Part shown: positions 23,195 through 64,000 of the stretch, piece by piece
Layout of the letters: each line of letters starts with the position of its first letter
How positions within the stretch are numbered: position 1 is the stretch's first letter
Source: an uncultured Dehalococcoidia bacterium
Lineage (GTDB): Bacteria > Chloroflexota > Dehalococcoidia > Lucifugimonadales > GCA-2712585
DNA length: 64,000 bases
Direction of reading: 5' to 3'
Assembly: GCA_958295715.1 (NCBI GenBank)
Contig: OY282371.1
Coordinates: 496,001 to 560,000 of the forward strand
The notes under the pieces: model-generated
The model's database searches: none
Seen by the model: the letters and a program-made list of their open reading frames with translations, nothing else
Told to the model about the DNA's origin: nothing
Made by a program: the position numbers and the translations under genes

Positions 23195-24003
23195 CCGGGG
23201 GCCGCGCTTCAGGGAGCCGCGCCCCGCGCCCGTCCGGCGGCGTCTCCTATGACGCCGCGGAGATGGGAGAGGCGACGCCCGCGCCCCCATCCGTCATTCC
23301 CGCGCAGGCGGGAAGGGCACGTGTGCCCACTTAGTTTTGAAGAGCGATGGTTCTGCGTTGTGGGCTTTTAGATTCCCGCCCCCATCCGTCATTCCCGCGC
23401 AGGCGGGAAGGGCACGTGTGCCCACTTAGTTTTGAAGAGCGGTGGTTCTGCGTTGCGGGCTTTTGGATTCCCGCCCCCATCCGTCATTCCCGCGCAGGCG
23501 GGAATCCATCCCTTCCCTCCTCCCATCGGATGACCCGACCGTCCAACCATTACGGATATTAACGGCGGGCTAGGGCCGGAGGGAGGCCATAGGAGACGTT
23601 CCTACGGATGACGCTGGGACATGGGGCGTTGGTTTGCTATGTAGGCTTCCTGGATTCCCGCCTGCGCGGGAATGACGGAAAGGGGGCACAGATGACCAGA
23701 CCATCCAACCATTACGGATATTAACGGCGGGCTAGGGCCGGAGGGAGGCCATAGGGGACGTTCCTACGGATGACGTGCGGGCGGGAGGGTGTTGGTTTGC
23801 TATGTAGGCTTCCTGGATTCCCGCCTGCGCGGGAAGGGCACGCGTGCCCACTTAGTTTTGAGAAGCGCTGGTTTTGGGATGAAGGTTTCCTGGATTCCCG
23901 CCTGCGCGGGAATGACGGAAAGGAGGATGCGGGAATGACGGATAAAGGATGCGGCGGTGACGGAGGGAAGGCGTGGGGACGCGGCGGTAACCGCCGCCGG
24001 GCC
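23195..24003. repeat. Intergenic repeat island 4
   Basis: An 809-base gene-free gap between convergent genes. It starts with a GC-rich stretch, then three consecutive units with dRS3 sequence at about 23294, 23390 and 23485; the first two run into the spacer with GGGCACGTGTGCCC and CTTAGTTTTGAAGAGCG. Two tandem copies of another unit follow (about 23545-23670 and 23705-23835) that share CCAACCATTACGGATATTAA and GGAGGCCATAGG and end in TAGGCTTCCTGGATTCCC. A further palindrome is near 23897. Confidence 0.85.
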
Positions 24004-32703: not shown

Positions 32704-33102
32704 AGGGGGAATTGGGCAACGTGAGCGGTGCGACAACTATCCTCTCACGCCGCGCGTCTGCCCTTCCCGCGCAGGCGGGAATCCAGGAAGCCCACGATAG
32801 AGAACCGGCGCTCTTCAAACCTAAAACGGGCGCACGCGCCCTTCCAGCGCAGGCGGGAATCCAGGAAGCCCACGACAGAGAACCAGCGCTCTTCAAACCT
32901 AAAACGGGCGCACGCGCCCTTCCAGCGCAGGCGGGAATCCAGGAAGCCCACGACAGAGAACCAGCGCTCTTCAAACCTAAAACGGGCGCACGCGCCCTTC
33001 CCGCGCAGGCGGGAATCCAGGAAGCCGTGGGGCCGGGGTTGGCGGCGCCTAACATACGCGCCAAGGCGCCCACGTATCTAAACAGTCAGGAGGTGAACAG
33101 CC
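32704..33102. repeat. 78-bp tandem repeat array (repeat island 5)
   Basis: GCAGGCGGGAAT recurs at 32771, 32849, 32927 and 33005, an exact 78-base period. Each unit joins half of the dRS3 palindrome to the spacer CCAGGAAGCCCACGA...CAGCGCTCTTCAAACCTAAAAC and the palindrome GGGCGCACGCGCCC. The units are nearly identical. Because 78 is a multiple of three, open frames appear on both strands, but they are judged non-coding. AGGAGG for the next gene is at 33089-33094. Confidence 0.9.
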
Positions 33103-47396: not shown

Positions 47397-48347
47397 GTGG
47401 CTATATCCTTTTCCAACGCATCCACACGGGAGACCTACGGCAAGGTATTGGTGGAGTTGGGCCGCGAGAACCCCGACATCGTGGTCTTGGGCGGCGACCT
47501 GAACAAGTCCACCTTCGTGCATCTCTTCGCCCAGGAGTTCCCCGACCGCTTTTACGACTTCGGCCCCGCCGAGCAGAACATTATGGGCGTGGCGGCGGGG
47601 ATGGCGGCGTCGGGCAAGACCCCCTTCGTGAGCACCTTCGCCGTCTTCGGCATGTGCCGCCCCTTCGACCAGGTGCGGATTAGCGTGGCTCAGCCGCGCC
47701 TGAACGTGAAGATAGTGTGCACCCACGCCGGCATCCTCACCGGCGAGGACGGCATGTCGGCCCACGGCATCGAGGACCTGTCCCTGGCCTGCTCCCTTCC
47801 GGGGTTCAACGTGTTGGCCCCCTGCGACGCCGTGGAGACTCGCGAGGCGGTGAGGACCGCCGCCCAGACCCCGGGCCCCTTCTACGTGCGCCTCTACAGG
47901 CCCGCCACGCCGGTGGTGCACCCGGACGGCTGCGACTTCGCCCTGGGCAGGGGCGAGGTTATGCGCCAGGGCTTGGACGCTTCCATCTTCGCCACCGGGG
48001 TGATGGTGGCCACGGCCCTCCAAGCCGCCGAGTCCCTGGTTCAGGAGGGTGTCCAGTGCCGCGTGGTCAACATCCACACCCTCAGCCCCCTTGACGAGGA
48101 GGTCATCGCCGAGGCGTCCAGGGACACGGGGGCGGTGGTCACCGTCGAGGAGCACCTGGCCCACGGCGGGTTGGGCAGCCGCGTCGCCCAGGCCCTGGGG
48201 CGCAAGGCCCCGGCCCCCCTGGAGATGGTGGCCTTGGAGGGCTACACCGAATCGGGCGCCCCGGACCTGCTCATGGAGAAGTACCGTCTGTCGCAGCGGG
48301 ACGTTGAGGCGGCGGTCAGGAAGGCGATAGGGCGAAAGGCCGGCTAG
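47397..48347 (+). CDS. Transketolase, C-terminal subunit
   Basis: 316 residues: pyrimidine-binding domain with FYDFGPAEQNIMGVAAGMA (catalytic Glu in AEQN), AVFGMCRPFDQVR, GEDGMSAHGIEDL, and the C-terminal transketolase domain (FATGVMVATALQAAE, VVNIHTLSPLD, VEEHLAHGGLGS). Starts with GTG 47397. The last 11 codons (AVRKAIGRKAG) are the founder of the downstream 76-bp tandem array. Confidence 0.9.
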   Translation: MAISFSNASTRETYGKVLVELGRENPDIVVLGGDLNKSTFVHLFAQEFPDRFYDFGPAEQNIMGVAAGMAASGKTPFVSTFAVFGMCRPFDQVRISVAQPRLNVKIVCTHAGILTGEDGMSAHGIEDLSLACSLPGFNVLAPCDAVETREAVRTAAQTPGPFYVRLYRPATPVVHPDGCDFALGRGEVMRQGLDASIFATGVMVATALQAAESLVQEGVQCRVVNIHTLSPLDEEVIAEASRDTGAVVTVEEHLAHGGLGSRVAQALGRKAPAPLEMVALEGYTESGAPDLLMEKYRLSQRDVEAAVRKAIGRKAG

Positions 48348-48756
48348 ACCCCAGCGCCGCGCATGAGACGCGGCTCAAATAGGGGCGGTGGTCAGGAAGG
48401 CCATAGGGCGAAAGGCCGGCTGACTCCGGGGGCCGCGCATGAGATGCGGCTCAAATGGGAGCGGCGGTCAGGAAGGCGATAGGGCGCAAGGCCGGCTGAC
48501 CCCGGGGGCCGCGCATGAGATGCGGCTTAAATAGGAGCGGCGGTCAGGAATGCGATAGGGCGAAAGGCCGGCTGACCCCGGGGGCCGCGCATGAGACGCG
48601 GCCCAAATAGGAGCGGCGGTCAGGAAGGCGATAGAGCGAAAGGCCGGCTAGACCCCAGGCGCCGCGCTTCAGATGCGGCTCAAATAGTAGCGGCGGTCAG
48701 GAAGGCGATAGGGCGAAAGGCCGGCTAGACCCTGGGGGCCGCGCTTGAGGGGCGGC
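48303..48756. repeat. 76-bp tandem array derived from the transketolase 3' end
   Basis: GTCAGG marks six copies at 48315 (inside the gene), 48391, 48467, 48543, 48619 and 48696 (period 76, last 77). Each unit has the 3' coding end (GCGGCGGTCAGGAAGGCGAT and following bases to CGGCTAG or CGGCTGA) plus about 36 bases of 3' flank with an inverted repeat GCCGC...GCGGC. The first stop codon is kept or changed to TGA in the copies. It fills the gap to the convergent ybaB stop. Confidence 0.92.
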
Positions 48757-49056
48757 TCACATAAGCCCCGGAATCTTCATGCCGCCCGTCAACGCCCCCA
48801 ACTTCTTGCCCGTCATGTCCTGGGCCTTGGCGGCGGCGTCGTTGAAGGCCGCGGCCACCATGTCCTGAAGCAGTTCGACATCCTCAGCCGCTTCGGGGGC
48901 AATCTCCACCGATTCCACCGTGTGCTTGCCCGTCATCACCACCCTAACCGCCCCGCCGCCGGCGCTGCCCTCCACCGTGGCCGACTCCAACTCCTCCTGG
49001 GCCTTCTGGAGCCGCGCCTGAAGCTGTTGGGCCTGCTTTATCATATTCCTATTCAT
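48757..49056 (-). CDS. ybaB: YbaB/EbfC-family nucleoid-associated protein
   Basis: 99-residue DNA-binding protein: MNRNMIKQAQQLQARLQKAQEE helix, VEGSAGGGAVRVVMTGKHTVESVEI beta-hairpin (in two parts), and AAFNDAAAKAQDMTGKK. It overlaps the dnaX end by eight bases, the common dnaX-ybaB pair; recR, usually next, is not here. Confidence 0.93.
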   Translation of the reverse strand: MNRNMIKQAQQLQARLQKAQEELESATVEGSAGGGAVRVVMTGKHTVESVEIAPEAAEDVELLQDMVAAAFNDAAAKAQDMTGKKLGALTGGMKIPGLM

Positions 49057-50719
49057 GGATATCCCTCTCCTCTATAATTCGCCCGCCCATCTGCTTGGCC
49101 GTTCTCACCAGCACGCTGTTAGACGCGGCGGCGCGGCTGTTGTTGGCGTCGCCGTGGAGGGTCAGCCGGATGGGGTAGGACTTGCCTAGGAACCGCTCCA
49201 AGGCCTTCGCCAGCGTCTCCCGGCCCCCCACCTCCGCCAACTCCTCCTCCATTCGCTCCATGTTGGACCGGTGGCTGAAGGGAAGGACGAGGTCGCCGTT
49301 TTCAAACTGGGGCGTTTTGCAGTCCTTCAAGAGGGCGCCCAGGAAGAACCGCTTGCCCTTCTGCCGCCTCAGGGCTTGGACGACGCGGCCCCACGCCTCA
49401 AGGGGAGCCTGGGCCCCCTCCTCCAACGGCGGAGGGACAGCGGGCGGCGGCCCCGGAGCCCTGGTCGGGTTGGCGGCCCTCCCGCCTGCCGGGGAGCCAC
49501 GGGCGGGGGGATTCCCGGCGGGGGCCGGGGTCCTTCCGGGGGGACTCGGCTGGCGTTCCCTGCCCCGGGCCGGCGGCGCGGTGGAGCCGGCGGCGGGCGC
49601 GGGAGATGGCCTTGTGGCGGCCGGCGGTTGGCTGGGCGCGGCGGCCTCGGCCAGAGACGCCTCCACCACGGCCAGCTCCAAGGGCAGGGCGGCCCCGGAG
49701 TTGGCGCGCATGTTCACCCCGCCCAGGGCCTTAAGGCAGCGCATGGTCTTGCTGAAATGGGCCTTCTTGGCCAGCCCTTCCACCTCTCTAAGGGTCTCCG
49801 CCTCCATGTCCAGGGTGTCGCCCGCCCCCGACTGCACCATCAGCACGGCCCTAAGGAGTTCCACCGCCTGACGGTGCACCTGCCGCACGTCCACCCCATC
49901 CCTGGCGGCGCGCCCGATGACACCCAGGGCCGATGGCGTGTTGCCCATTAGAAAGTGGGAAACCAGGTCCCGCGCCTCCTGGCTGTGGCCGAGTCCCAGG
50001 ATATCCTTGAGGGCGTCGAAGTTCACCTTCTGCCCAAAGGACACGACCACCTGCTCCAACAGGTTCTCCGCGTCCCTCAGGCTCCCGCCCGCGGCCCTGG
50101 CCAGGGCCTCCAAGGCCTTGGCGTCGGCCTCGATGCCCTCCTCGTTGCAGAGGAACCGCAGCCTTCCCACGATAGTCTCCGAGGCCAGCCGCCGGAAGTC
50201 GAACCGTTGGCACCGGGATATGATGGTCGGCAGTATCTTGTGCGGCTCCGTGGTGCACAGGATGAATATCACGTGGGGCGGCGGCTCCTCCAGGGTCTTG
50301 AGGAAGGCGTTGGAGGCCGCCTCCGTGAGCATGTGGGCCTCGTCGACGATGTAGACCTTGTAACGCCCCTCAACGGGGGAGAAGTTCACCTTGTCCCGGA
50401 TGCTTCGCACCTCGTCGATGCCCCGGTTGCTGGCGGCGTCCATCTCGATGAGGTCTAGGGCGCGGCCCTGGTCCAGGTTCCGGCACTGGGAGCACTGGTT
50501 GTCCGGCTCCCCGTCCTGGGATTGGAGGCAGTTGAGGGTCCTGGCCAGCACCCGGGCGGTGGTGGTCTTGCCGGTGCCCCGTGGCCCGCTGAAGAGGTAG
50601 GCGTGAGACACCCGGTTCTGCAAGACCGCCTGCCTCAGGACGGTGGTCACGTGCTCCTGCCCCGCCAGGTCTTTGAACCTGCGGGGGCGCCATTTGCGAT
50701 ACAAAACCTCGGTGGTCAT
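49049..50719 (-). CDS. dnaX: DNA polymerase III subunit gamma/tau
   Basis: 556 residues. AAA+ clamp-loader ATPase: YRKWRPRRFKDLAGQEHV, Walker A SGPRGTGKTTTARVLA, a zinc module with four Cys (CLQSQDGEPDNQCSQCRN), Walker B VYIVDEAHML, sensor TTEPHKILPTIISRCQRFDFR. A Pro/Ala/Gly-rich linker (about 365-445) precedes a C-terminal domain. No slippery poly-A frameshift site is evident at the gamma/tau boundary. A -10-like TAAAAT (50726-50731) lies six bases from the ATG, suggesting a leaderless mRNA. Confidence 0.95.
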   Translation of the reverse strand: MTTEVLYRKWRPRRFKDLAGQEHVTTVLRQAVLQNRVSHAYLFSGPRGTGKTTTARVLARTLNCLQSQDGEPDNQCSQCRNLDQGRALDLIEMDAASNRGIDEVRSIRDKVNFSPVEGRYKVYIVDEAHMLTEAASNAFLKTLEEPPPHVIFILCTTEPHKILPTIISRCQRFDFRRLASETIVGRLRFLCNEEGIEADAKALEALARAAGGSLRDAENLLEQVVVSFGQKVNFDALKDILGLGHSQEARDLVSHFLMGNTPSALGVIGRAARDGVDVRQVHRQAVELLRAVLMVQSGAGDTLDMEAETLREVEGLAKKAHFSKTMRCLKALGGVNMRANSGAALPLELAVVEASLAEAAAPSQPPAATRPSPAPAAGSTAPPARGRERQPSPPGRTPAPAGNPPARGSPAGGRAANPTRAPGPPPAVPPPLEEGAQAPLEAWGRVVQALRRQKGKRFFLGALLKDCKTPQFENGDLVLPFSHRSNMERMEEELAEVGGRETLAKALERFLGKSYPIRLTLHGDANNSRAAASNSVLVRTAKQMGGRIIEERDIHE

Positions 50720-51496: not shown

Positions 51497-53176
51497 TTGC
51501 CACAGCACGACGTAATCGTAATCGGCGGCGGCTTCGCCGGGCTACGCGCCGCCTTGGAGGCCCGCGCGTCGAGCGCCGACGTGGCCGTGCTCTCCAAGGT
51601 CCACCCCATGCGCAGCCACTCCTCCGGCGCCCATAGCGGGGTCAACGCCGCCCTCAAGTCCGGCGACTCCTGGCAGGACCACGCCAAGGACACCATCGAG
51701 GCCGGGGCCTACCTCTGCGACCAGAAGGCCGTTGAGGTCCTGTGCAAGAACGCCTCGGAGGACGTTGTCGCCCTGGAGCGTATGGGGGTCATCTTCAACC
51801 GCGACAGCGACGGCCGCATAGACGTCATGCCCTTCGCCGGCTCCTCCCATCCCCGCACCTGCTACGCCGGCGACTCCGCGGGCCACGTCATCCTACAGGT
51901 GCTATACGAGCAGGTCCTCCGTTCCCAAATACCCACTTACGACGAGTGGTTCGTTTCCTCCATACTGGTGGAAGACGGCATGTGCAAGGGGGTGGTGGCC
52001 CGGGAGTTGAAGACGGGGCAGAACCACGCCTTTTACGCCAAGGCGGTGATTCTCGCCACCGGCGGCCTGGGCCGCGTCTACTCGCCCAGCACCTGTTCCC
52101 TCACCGGCACCGCCGACGGCCCGGCCTTGGCCTACCGCGCGGGCGCGCCCCTTGTAGACATGGAGATGGTCCAGTACCACCCAACGACCCTCAGCGACAG
52201 GGGCATACTCATTACCGAGGCGGCCCGCGGCGAGGGCGGGCGCCTGGTCAACAAGGACGGCGACCGGTTTATGGCCGCCAGCGACGCCGGGGCCATGGAG
52301 ATGGCCGCCAGAGACGTTTGCTCCCGGGCCGTTCACGCCGAGATACAGGAGGGACGCGGCGAGAACGGCAACGTTTACCTGGACCTGCGCCACCTGGACA
52401 AGGGGCGCATCTCCGACAGGCTGCGGGAGACCCTGTGGCTGCTGGAGGACCTGGAGGACCTGGACCCATCCAAGGACCTGATACCCGTGCGGCCCGCCAT
52501 GCACAGGCCCATCGGCGGCGTTAGGGTAGACACCTTTGGGGCCACCGGCCTGCCGGGTCTCTACGCCGCCGGGGAGTGCGCCTCCACCGGGGCTCACGGC
52601 GCCAACCGGTTGGGGGGAAACTCCCTGCTGGATTGCGTGGTCTTTGGCAGGCGGGCCGGGGAGGCCGCGGCCAGGCACTCCAGGGGCGCGACGTGGCATC
52701 CGCCCCAAGAATCCCTGGCCATCGCCGAGACCGCCGGCTTCAACGAGATAGCCTCCCGGGCGCCGGGCAAGGACACCCCCGGCATCATCCGCCGAGAGTT
52801 GGGTTCCCTTATGAACAGAAAGGTTGGAATACTCAGGGACGAGGCCGGCTTGAAGGACGCCGCTTCCGTCCTGAGGAATCTTAAGGAGCGCCACTCGCGC
52901 CTGGGCCTGCGGGACAAGGACGCGGCTTACAACACGGACATAATCTCGGCGGCGGAACTGGGCAACATGCTCGACGTGGCCGAGATAATAATCGCCGCGG
53001 CCCTGGCCCGGCGGGAGAGCCGCGGCTGCCACTACCGGACCGATTTCCCACAGCGGGACGACGTGAAGTGGCTCAGGCGCTCCGTGGCCACCCGGTCCAC
53101 CCGCGGCCCCATCATCAACAGCGCCCCCGTGGTCGTCACCCAGTGGAATCCTGCCGAGCGGAATCCTGCCCGGTGA
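51497..53176 (+). CDS. sdhA: Succinate dehydrogenase/fumarate reductase flavoprotein subunit
   Basis: 559 residues. FAD site VIGGGFAGLRAALEA; the His for covalent FAD lies in MRSHSSGAHSGVNAAL; FAD-domain ILATGGLGRVYSPST; active site HPTTLSDRGILITEAARGEGG; GLYAAGECASTGAHGANRLGGN (in two blocks). TTG 51497 is chosen because AGGAGG lies four bases upstream; ATG 51461 has none. It oxidises succinate in the TCA cycle, or reduces fumarate. The extreme C-terminus (VTQWNPAERNPAR) is built from short WNP/RNP repeats that continue into the following 38 bases. Confidence 0.94.
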   Translation: MPQHDVIVIGGGFAGLRAALEARASSADVAVLSKVHPMRSHSSGAHSGVNAALKSGDSWQDHAKDTIEAGAYLCDQKAVEVLCKNASEDVVALERMGVIFNRDSDGRIDVMPFAGSSHPRTCYAGDSAGHVILQVLYEQVLRSQIPTYDEWFVSSILVEDGMCKGVVARELKTGQNHAFYAKAVILATGGLGRVYSPSTCSLTGTADGPALAYRAGAPLVDMEMVQYHPTTLSDRGILITEAARGEGGRLVNKDGDRFMAASDAGAMEMAARDVCSRAVHAEIQEGRGENGNVYLDLRHLDKGRISDRLRETLWLLEDLEDLDPSKDLIPVRPAMHRPIGGVRVDTFGATGLPGLYAAGECASTGAHGANRLGGNSLLDCVVFGRRAGEAAARHSRGATWHPPQESLAIAETAGFNEIASRAPGKDTPGIIRRELGSLMNRKVGILRDEAGLKDAASVLRNLKERHSRLGLRDKDAAYNTDIISAAELGNMLDVAEIIIAAALARRESRGCHYRTDFPQRDDVKWLRRSVATRSTRGPIINSAPVVVTQWNPAERNPAR

Positions 53177-53214
53177 AACCCTGCCCAGCGGAATCCTGAA
53201 GGAGGAACCTAGAG

Positions 53215-56997: not shown

Positions 56998-57724
56998 GGG
57001 TTCCGGCTCAGGTGGGCGTAGGGATGTATGGAGGGGTCGAGGGTTTTGTCACCCCCCTATTTTATCCCCGCGAAGACCCTCGCCACTAGGCGAACGGACT
57101 ACGGGCTTTGACGGAACAGGGGTTGAGGGGCGGCTTTACCCTTACCCCTCTCCGTCATTCCCGCGCAGGCGGGAAGGGCACGTGTGCCCACTTAGTTTTG
57201 GAGAGCGTTGAGGGCTTCTCGACTCTCGCCCCGATCCGTTATTCCCCCTCTCTTATCCGTCATTCCCGCGCAGGCGGGAATCCATCCCCCGCCTGCCGAT
57301 TCAGGCCGGTGAGCCATACGCCGCCATCCGTCACTCTTATCCGTCATTCCCGCGCAGGCGGGAATCCATCCCCTCCCCTCCGTTACACCAAGGGAACAGC
57401 GCGAGTCCCCGGTGAGAGCCGGCCCCATACGGCCAGACTGGCTTGAGGTCTCCATCCCTTATTGGAGGGAGAGGCGGGGGTGGCACTCGTAGACGTCCCT
57501 ACGGGTGGGCTTGGGGTCTTGGCTTTGGGGTGTAAGGTTCCTGGATTCCCGCCTACGCGGGAAGGGCACGTGTGCCCATTTTTGTTTTGCGGAGCGTTGG
57601 TTCTGCTTTGTGGCCCTCCTGGATTCCCGTTTTCACGGGAATGACGGGAGAGGGAGCCGGGAATGACGGAAAGGGGGGAGGGAATGACGGATAAGAGAGG
57701 CGGGAATTACCAGAAGGGTCGTAC
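56998..57724. repeat. Intergenic repeat island 9
   Basis: No gene in 727 bases. Full palindromes near 57265, 57350 and 57625, half copies running into GGGCACGTGTGCCC at about 57165-57185 and 57555-57575. Spacers repeat those of islands 1, 4 and 10 (CTTAGTTTTGGAGAGCG; TTTTTGTTTTGCGGAGCG). Confidence 0.85.
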
Positions 57725-63365: not shown

Positions 63366-64000
63366 CCCGGCCGCCGCCCCATCCGTCATTCCCGCCGCCC
63401 CTCCTTTCCGTCATTCCCGCGAAGGCGGGAATCCATCCCCCGCCACGTCGCAGGACCAACGCCATGGGCCGCGGCGCATCTCCCCACTCCGTCATTCCCG
63501 TGAAAACGGGAATCCAGGAAGGCCCCAACCCCTAACGGCCAATGTGTCGCTCTCACGCCTTCTGGCCCTCTCCCCGCCGTGGTTATCCGTAATGGTTGGG
63601 CGGTTCGCGTTCGTATAGTAGGAGGAGAGAAGATGGATTCCCGCCTACGCGGGAAGGGCACGCGCGCCCATTTTGGTTTTGCGGAGCGTCGGTCTTGGGA
63701 TGAAGGGGGGATGGATTCCCGCCTGCGCGGGAAGGGCACGTGTGCCCATTTAAGTTTTGAAGAGGGTTGGTTCTGCGTTGGAAGCTCCGGCTTCCCGCCT
63801 GCGCGGGAATGACGGATAAGAGGGCGCCGGAATGCCGGTGGGTTGAGGCCGGAGTTCGGGGCGTTGGTTTTGCGATGGGACCTTCCTGGATTCCCGTTTT
63901 CACGGGAATGACGGATAAGAAAAGACGGGAATGACGGATAGGAGAGGGGAGGCGCAGCCAAGAGCCGCCAGCGCAGAATCAGCCCTCTTCAAAACAGAAG
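63366..64000. repeat. Repeat island 10 (runs off the window end)
   Basis: No gene. Palindromes at about 63411-63430, 63496-63515 and 63893-63912, half copies near 63637, 63716 and 63796. Spacer types seen elsewhere recur: the GGCCCCAACC...CGGCCAATGTGTCGCTCTCAC unit (63520-63570, related to 1830-1935), and the GGGCACGTGTGCCC/TTTTGAAGAG unit (63650-63690 and 63730-63775). A reversed copy (CCCTCTTCAAAAC) begins at about 63980. Confidence 0.85.

Follow-up and report, generated by a model that had tools for sequence, protein, structure and literature searches.

What fills the gap between two convergent genes when it has grown to several times the length found in relatives, and does the added sequence do anything? 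This question is raised by a locus in the window analysed here, a stretch of 64,000 nucleotides from an uncultured Dehalococcoidia bacterium, in which the gene for a transketolase C-terminal subunit (47397-48347, plus strand; Pfam Transket_pyr, 2.2e-41, and Transketolase_C, 1.7e-27) faces ybaB/ebfC (48757-49056, minus strand; YbaB_DNA_bd, 9.8e-30), with dnaX (DNA polymerase III gamma/tau; 49049-50719, minus strand; DNA_pol3_delta2, 3.7e-50, and DNA_pol3_gamma3, 3.2e-08) upstream of ybaB. The transketolase subunit has a relative of 77% identity within the same genus. TRF placed an array between the two genes at 48309-48763 (period 76, 6.0 copies, 89% matches, score 677), so the six-copy tandem repeat described in the initial annotation is real, with one copy of 77 instead of 76 bp. 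Copies start at 48309, 48385, 48461, 48537, 48613 and 48690, with lengths of 76, 76, 76, 76, 77 and 76 bp, and differ pairwise at 5-14 of 77 alignment columns. The annotation had described the unit as a transketolase tail and stop codon with a GCCGC/GCGGC hairpin, and the tail, a stop and the hairpin are indeed present in each copy; however, the ybaB stop is part of the unit as well. What is repeated is the complete convergent junction, made up of the last 12 transketolase codons and their stop, a 28 bp spacer holding the short GC hairpin, the stop of ybaB and a few bases more.

Read along the plus strand, copy 1 (48309-48384) carries the genuine last 12 codons of transketolase with the TAG stop at 48345-48347, followed by the hairpin spacer and a copied ybaB stop, which bears out the claim that the first copy is the true 3' end of the gene. 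Copy 6 (48690-48763) has a copied transketolase tail, the spacer and the genuine ybaB stop at 48757-48759. Transketolase is thus the donor of the tail, the 3' end of its convergent partner lies inside the unit, and both flanking genes are whole despite the array. With head-to-tail units well above about 10 bp (76 bp x 6.0) the array is a minisatellite, and with the transketolase TAG (copy 1) and the ybaB stop (copy 6) inside the repeat it is a candidate for the kind of VNTR that overlaps stop codons. When the whole array was used as a query, one match was found in the genome, and a core of 20 bases, allowing for up to 3 mismatches, hit six genome sites, all within the array (1 and 1 for the reversed control). 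Since the core is confined to these six sites, the unit does not belong to a dispersed repeat family such as MIRU. Neither is the array a CRISPR, as the whole unit is conserved and there is no variable spacer block.

The last-12-codon tail, AAVRKAIGRKAG, is present in every copy, followed by TAG in copies 1, 5 (48613-48689, 77 bp) and 6 and by TGA in copies 2 (48385-48460), 3 (48461-48536) and 4 (48537-48612). Because each copy still encodes a tail plus stop, readthrough or frameshifting at the first stop could be imagined to append repeats of the C-terminus to transketolase, as the initial annotation had proposed. However, 76 is not a multiple of 3 and the copied tails lie in frames 0, 1, 2, 0, 1 and 0. 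Copy 2 is therefore out of frame with the gene: in frame 0 the ribosome would meet 44 unrelated residues and then a stop past the first transketolase stop, and in the other two frames stops come before any copied tail is in frame. Single readthrough or frameshift events are already refuted by these frames, and we give such a coding device practically no credence. The copied tails of copies 2, 4 and 5 have one amino-acid change apiece, and these three changes together with the changed stop give no sign of coding constraint on the copied tails, as judged from their sequence.

To see the junction in other genomes, 59 relatives were searched, and loci were returned for 29; most of those recovered belong to Dehalococcoidia, the SAR202 cluster or Chloroflexi/Chloroflexota. 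None of these 29 has an array within 1 kb 3' of the gene, the sole other TRF match being 17 bp x 2 in locus L025. The convergent transketolase/ybaB pair is kept, array-free, in two genomes of one sister genus (G003 and G006, with 49 and 52 bp between coding matches) and in one of another genus of the same family (G005, 87 bp), compared with 415 bp here. In G001 and G004 the junction holds other sequence with ORFs (723 and 1053 bp), and in G002 transketolase and ybaB are 12 kb apart on one strand; G001 and G002 were treated as other species, and their sequence at the junction differs; a second strain of the species was not among the loci found. The short gaps of the relatives are too diverged to be aligned with the unit. 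By this comparison, the ancestral state was likely a short gap with no array, and the growth of a repeat out of gene sequence, as the annotation had it, is supported by the genuine gene end in copy 1 and by the lack of an array in 29 of 29 relatives. Two further observations were made at these loci. The G004 junction (L136:1270-1906) contains two small ORFs that by eye resemble a BrnT/BrnA-type toxin-antitoxin pair. In the G001 bin, transketolase pieces on two contigs (L055 and L056) are 77% and 92% identical to that of the window and overlap on the query (residues 87-316 and 1-132), hence this metagenome bin may mix two species.

The reading that we prefer, with a probability of about 0.75, is that the array is a minisatellite, and a candidate VNTR, that arose from a tandemly duplicated and expanded convergent junction and has been tolerated there. 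An ancestral single junction (transketolase stop, 28 bp, ybaB stop) would have been duplicated in tandem and then expanded to six units, presumably by replication slippage or unequal exchange. As the unit would run from one gene tail to the other, both genes would remain complete at any copy number, and the array would be tolerated for that reason. Such an array should be close to neutral and its copy number may vary among present-day strains. The same process presumably operated at further sites of what would be a duplication-prone genome and left similar arrays at other 3' ends, mostly convergent ones, where no promoter or operon link is disturbed.

We surveyed 1.264 Mb of the 2.405 Mb genome (53%, two contigs) in 20 kb stretches, with genes called by an in-house codon-usage script rather than a published caller and arrays defined by a TRF period of at least 40 and a score of at least 150. 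ORFs under 600 bp with 75% or more of their length inside an array were dropped, and arrays at stretch ends or wholly within genes were left unassigned to gaps. Of the 129 convergent gaps, 11 had an array overlapping or touching a gene 3' end, as did 3 of the 687 tandem gaps and none of the 135 divergent ones, that is, 11/129 convergent versus 3/822 other gaps (Fisher 4.9e-8). The annotation had called such repeats uncommon, which does not hold for this genome: 14 gaps, the transketolase one included, carry a gene-end array in the 53% sampled. The first sample, which includes the window that prompted the survey, gave 7/44 convergent versus 1/327 other gaps (p 1.5e-6); the second alone gave 2/37 versus 2/259, which is below significance (p 0.08), and the third alone 2/48 versus 0/236 (p 0.028). 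Taken together, the second and third samples, both drawn after the pattern had been seen, gave 4/85 versus 2/495 (p 0.005). Arrays touching a gene 5' end numbered 0 in convergent, 5 in tandem and 0 in divergent gaps. Tandem gaps thus have 5 with an array at the 5' end versus 3 at the 3' end (two gaps being in both counts), so gaps that are not convergent show no bias towards 3' ends.

Genes involved, identified by eye from translations, include rplT/ctaB, hflX, gatC/gatA, sufB/sufC and those for a ribosome hibernation factor, a uracil-DNA glycosylase and an aldo-keto reductase. Unit lengths range from 65 to 219 bp, and for 8 of the first 9 convergent cases the distance between the two stops at the length of one unit could be given, as -4, -4, -4, 9, 13, 24, 28 and about 109 bp, the last value depending on the chosen cut point of the unit. 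The L110:12806 array has three identical copies alongside diverged ones, as ongoing expansion would give. No full-length match of the 14 units was found elsewhere in the 1.264 Mb, apart from further copies at their own junctions, namely one 92 bp on from the L155 array and those of the irregular L232 array itself. Weak short matches outside were obtained for the transketolase unit (31 bases at 87%, E 0.005) and for the amidase unit (25 bases, E 5e-4), and the L232 array had several of 22-31 bases. This last array (L232:1762-2332) is an irregular one of an ABC-permease-like gene tail, identified by eye, whose units of several lengths suggest repeated rearrangement. The window itself holds a second, small repeated gene tail, a 15 bp repeat in four copies (53139-53198; 75% matches by TRF) across the 3' end of a gene that ends at 53176 and whose product looks like the flavoprotein of a succinate dehydrogenase/fumarate reductase.

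Gene-end arrays were absent from all 138 convergent gaps sampled in seven relatives (G002, G009, G016, G045, G038, G001 and G004), the samples being small at 9 to 55 convergent gaps each; the nine arrays known at that point in 81 gaps of this genome differ from G002 alone with p 0.011. Arrays elsewhere in gaps occurred in G009 (4), G001 (2) and G045 (1). At individual junctions, the rplT array was absent at 5 of 5 places found in relatives and the gatC array at 5 of 5, one of the latter being a match of just 39% identity. At hpf, 2 of 2 places have no array at the gene end; in one of them the available sequence runs out about 400 bp downstream, and in the other an unrelated repeat of 33 bp follows at a distance of about 420 bp. 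Loss of MutS, SbcD or RecJ repair gave no lead as a cause of the array load, since all three are present in this genome; all 8 genomes searched have MutS and RecJ, and 7 of the 8 have SbcD.

The count of 11/129 convergent versus 3/822 other gaps might also be explained if convergent transcription itself caused the duplications, through polymerase or replisome collisions or through supercoiling, in which case the enrichment would reflect mutation and not selection. The excess is indeed larger than the factor of two expected from the two 3' ends of a convergent gap. However, when arrays confined to the gap itself are counted, tandem gaps (39 per 112.6 kb) come close to convergent ones (15 per 34.0 kb) in density and divergent gaps have fewer (6 per 71.3 kb), which fits removal near promoters better than attraction to convergence. 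Tolerance accounts for the same pattern and is favoured by these densities over a mechanism driven by convergence, which we regard as decidedly unlikely.

We then considered whether the repeated hairpins might be useful. The arms GCCGC/GCGGC are identical across the six copies: these 10 columns are constant while 25 of 77 columns vary, with a chance of 0.014 (uncorrected, and chosen after looking), which is a weak hint of constraint. Since the arms never vary, no covariation could be counted. A reinforced two-way terminator or polymerase roadblock, with its copies kept by selection, would agree with these invariant arms and with the enrichment of arrays at convergent gaps, and the annotation had suggested that the hairpins act as a two-way transcription block. 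The short hairpin with its invariant arms stands, but further support for the block was not obtained. There is no T-run after the stem, as an intrinsic terminator with stem and U-tract would have; a scan for terminator-like sites gave none within the array and a single one in the rest of the region, versus 0.8 expected; and Rfam, searched up to E 1, yielded no hit. Simple shuffles of the first transketolase unit have nearly the same fold energy as the unit itself (z -1.1 and -0.8), and in none of the 12 gene-end arrays known at the time does the first unit fold better than mononucleotide shuffles (z -1.3 to +1.6). In addition, the stops at L110:12806 and L094:4821 overlap by 4 bp in one unit, the unit there is coding sequence of both genes, and relatives manage with array-free junctions. 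A selected terminator or roadblock is therefore quite unlikely in our view, and the transketolase array is most likely harmless, a stutter of the DNA and not a functional device.

Plain slippage does not describe every array equally well. Five of the 14 gene-end arrays close with a half copy: a gene-end target of 33-40 bp comes first, then a filler measuring 33-39 bp, then the target once more, and by eye the fillers could be placed in neither flanking gene. Two operon-internal arrays, L154:18983-19158 (gatC/gatA-like) and L145:306-491 (sufB/sufC-like), each have a target in which a stop plus a start codon is repeated, followed by a filler of 33-34 bp. Half copies with fillers in 5/14 arrays go beyond simple slippage, and the duplication of a 33-40 bp target around such a filler raises the idea of an active, lineage-specific process with a distinct duplication mechanism that makes arrays of gene ends, above all of stop-to-stop junctions; we consider this reading tentative and on the whole improbable.

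On the idea of a neo-CRISPR, an integrase such as Cas1-Cas2 might have placed a spacer-like stretch at gene ends and duplicated the target there, the pair being amplified later by unequal exchange. The target-filler-target layout of the five arrays would agree with such an insertion, and the genome does have a CRISPR array with a period of 61 bp (L095:15-6084; type I-E-like by eye over bases 1-700, in part with identical units, at 1605-1815, 100% matches). Its repeat, however, measures 28 bp and not 33-40 bp, so it was dismissed as a relative of the half-copy arrays; the transketolase array has no half copy; and a search of 864 kb gave no clear source for the five fillers, since the best match outside their own arrays was 16 bases (E 0.004) and the best for a shuffled filler, among the matches listed, 15 bases (E 0.019). 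We consider an insertion of this type very improbable. Another array, L112:49-2386 (period 72), was likewise discarded as CRISPR-related, for it reads as an LRR-like coding repeat.

A dispersed palindrome, TTCCCGCGCAGGCGGGAA, or one of its relatives is found in many other arrays of this genome, which lie in longer gaps; a palindrome of this type could serve as the seed of direct repeats. Within the window, the arrays at 23282-23835, 32760-33026, 57637-57718 and 63366-63419 contain the TTCCCGCGCAGGCGGGAA palindrome or the GGGAATGACGG motif. The test for REP-like GGGAATGACGG / CCGTCATTCCC sequence, run with GGGAATGACGG only, detected this motif neither in the transketolase array nor in the other 13 gene-end arrays.

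According to the available excerpts of published accounts, repeats of this kind are already known, as VNTRs at stop codons (PMC3689786) and as Borg repeats that can start within the end of an ORF (PMC9879509). In Yersinia pestis, 10 of 88 VNTRs overlap stops and 6 overlap starts, and the authors noted that at stop codons the number of copies might matter less to the ORF (PMC3689786). The units here likewise take in a gene's stop codon, but they measure 65-219 bp compared with motifs of 1-60 bp, and convergent pairs or units with two stops are not mentioned in the excerpts of that account. Borg elements also have many independent, locus-specific arrays per replicon while the genomes of their hosts are virtually free of them; their repeats are perfect and enriched in A, have units of 18-36 nt in the excerpted cases and lie inside ORFs in about half of all cases, whereas the arrays of the present genome have diverged copies, are rich in GC and sit at gene ends (PMC9879509). 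MIRU are minisatellite units at gene boundaries that spare the gene, too, overlapping the start codon and used for typing by their copy number; as excerpted, they form a dispersed family, apparently mobile, whose insertion sites are start codons, unlike the units here, which are local sequence with the stop pair as their commonest site (PMC12548453, PMC3635867). In freshwater Planctomycetota, structural variants often fall in intergenic tandem repeats and are ascribed to polymerase slippage, which resembles the present case as a lineage trait, a gene-end location not being described in the part available (PMC9426551). Minisatellites make up 2% of the variable loci of E. coli, in an account whose excerpts do not mention convergent genes or stop codons (PMC2884548). 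A literature search with subscription journals mostly outside its scope found nothing on SAR202 intergenic tandem repeats or on tandem repeats in convergent intergenic gaps. What looks unusual here is the stop-to-stop unit and the frequency of the arrays, which was not found described in the literature searched.

Taken alone, the transketolase locus is an unexceptional minisatellite that might serve as a strain marker. In this lineage, about one convergent junction in twelve is expanded, compared with none in the samples of seven relatives, and 14 gaps in half a genome offer a natural system for the origin of tandem repeats in bacteria. The lineage also suits the question of why repeats survive at gene ends, and the further question of whether added spacing between convergent genes alters termination.
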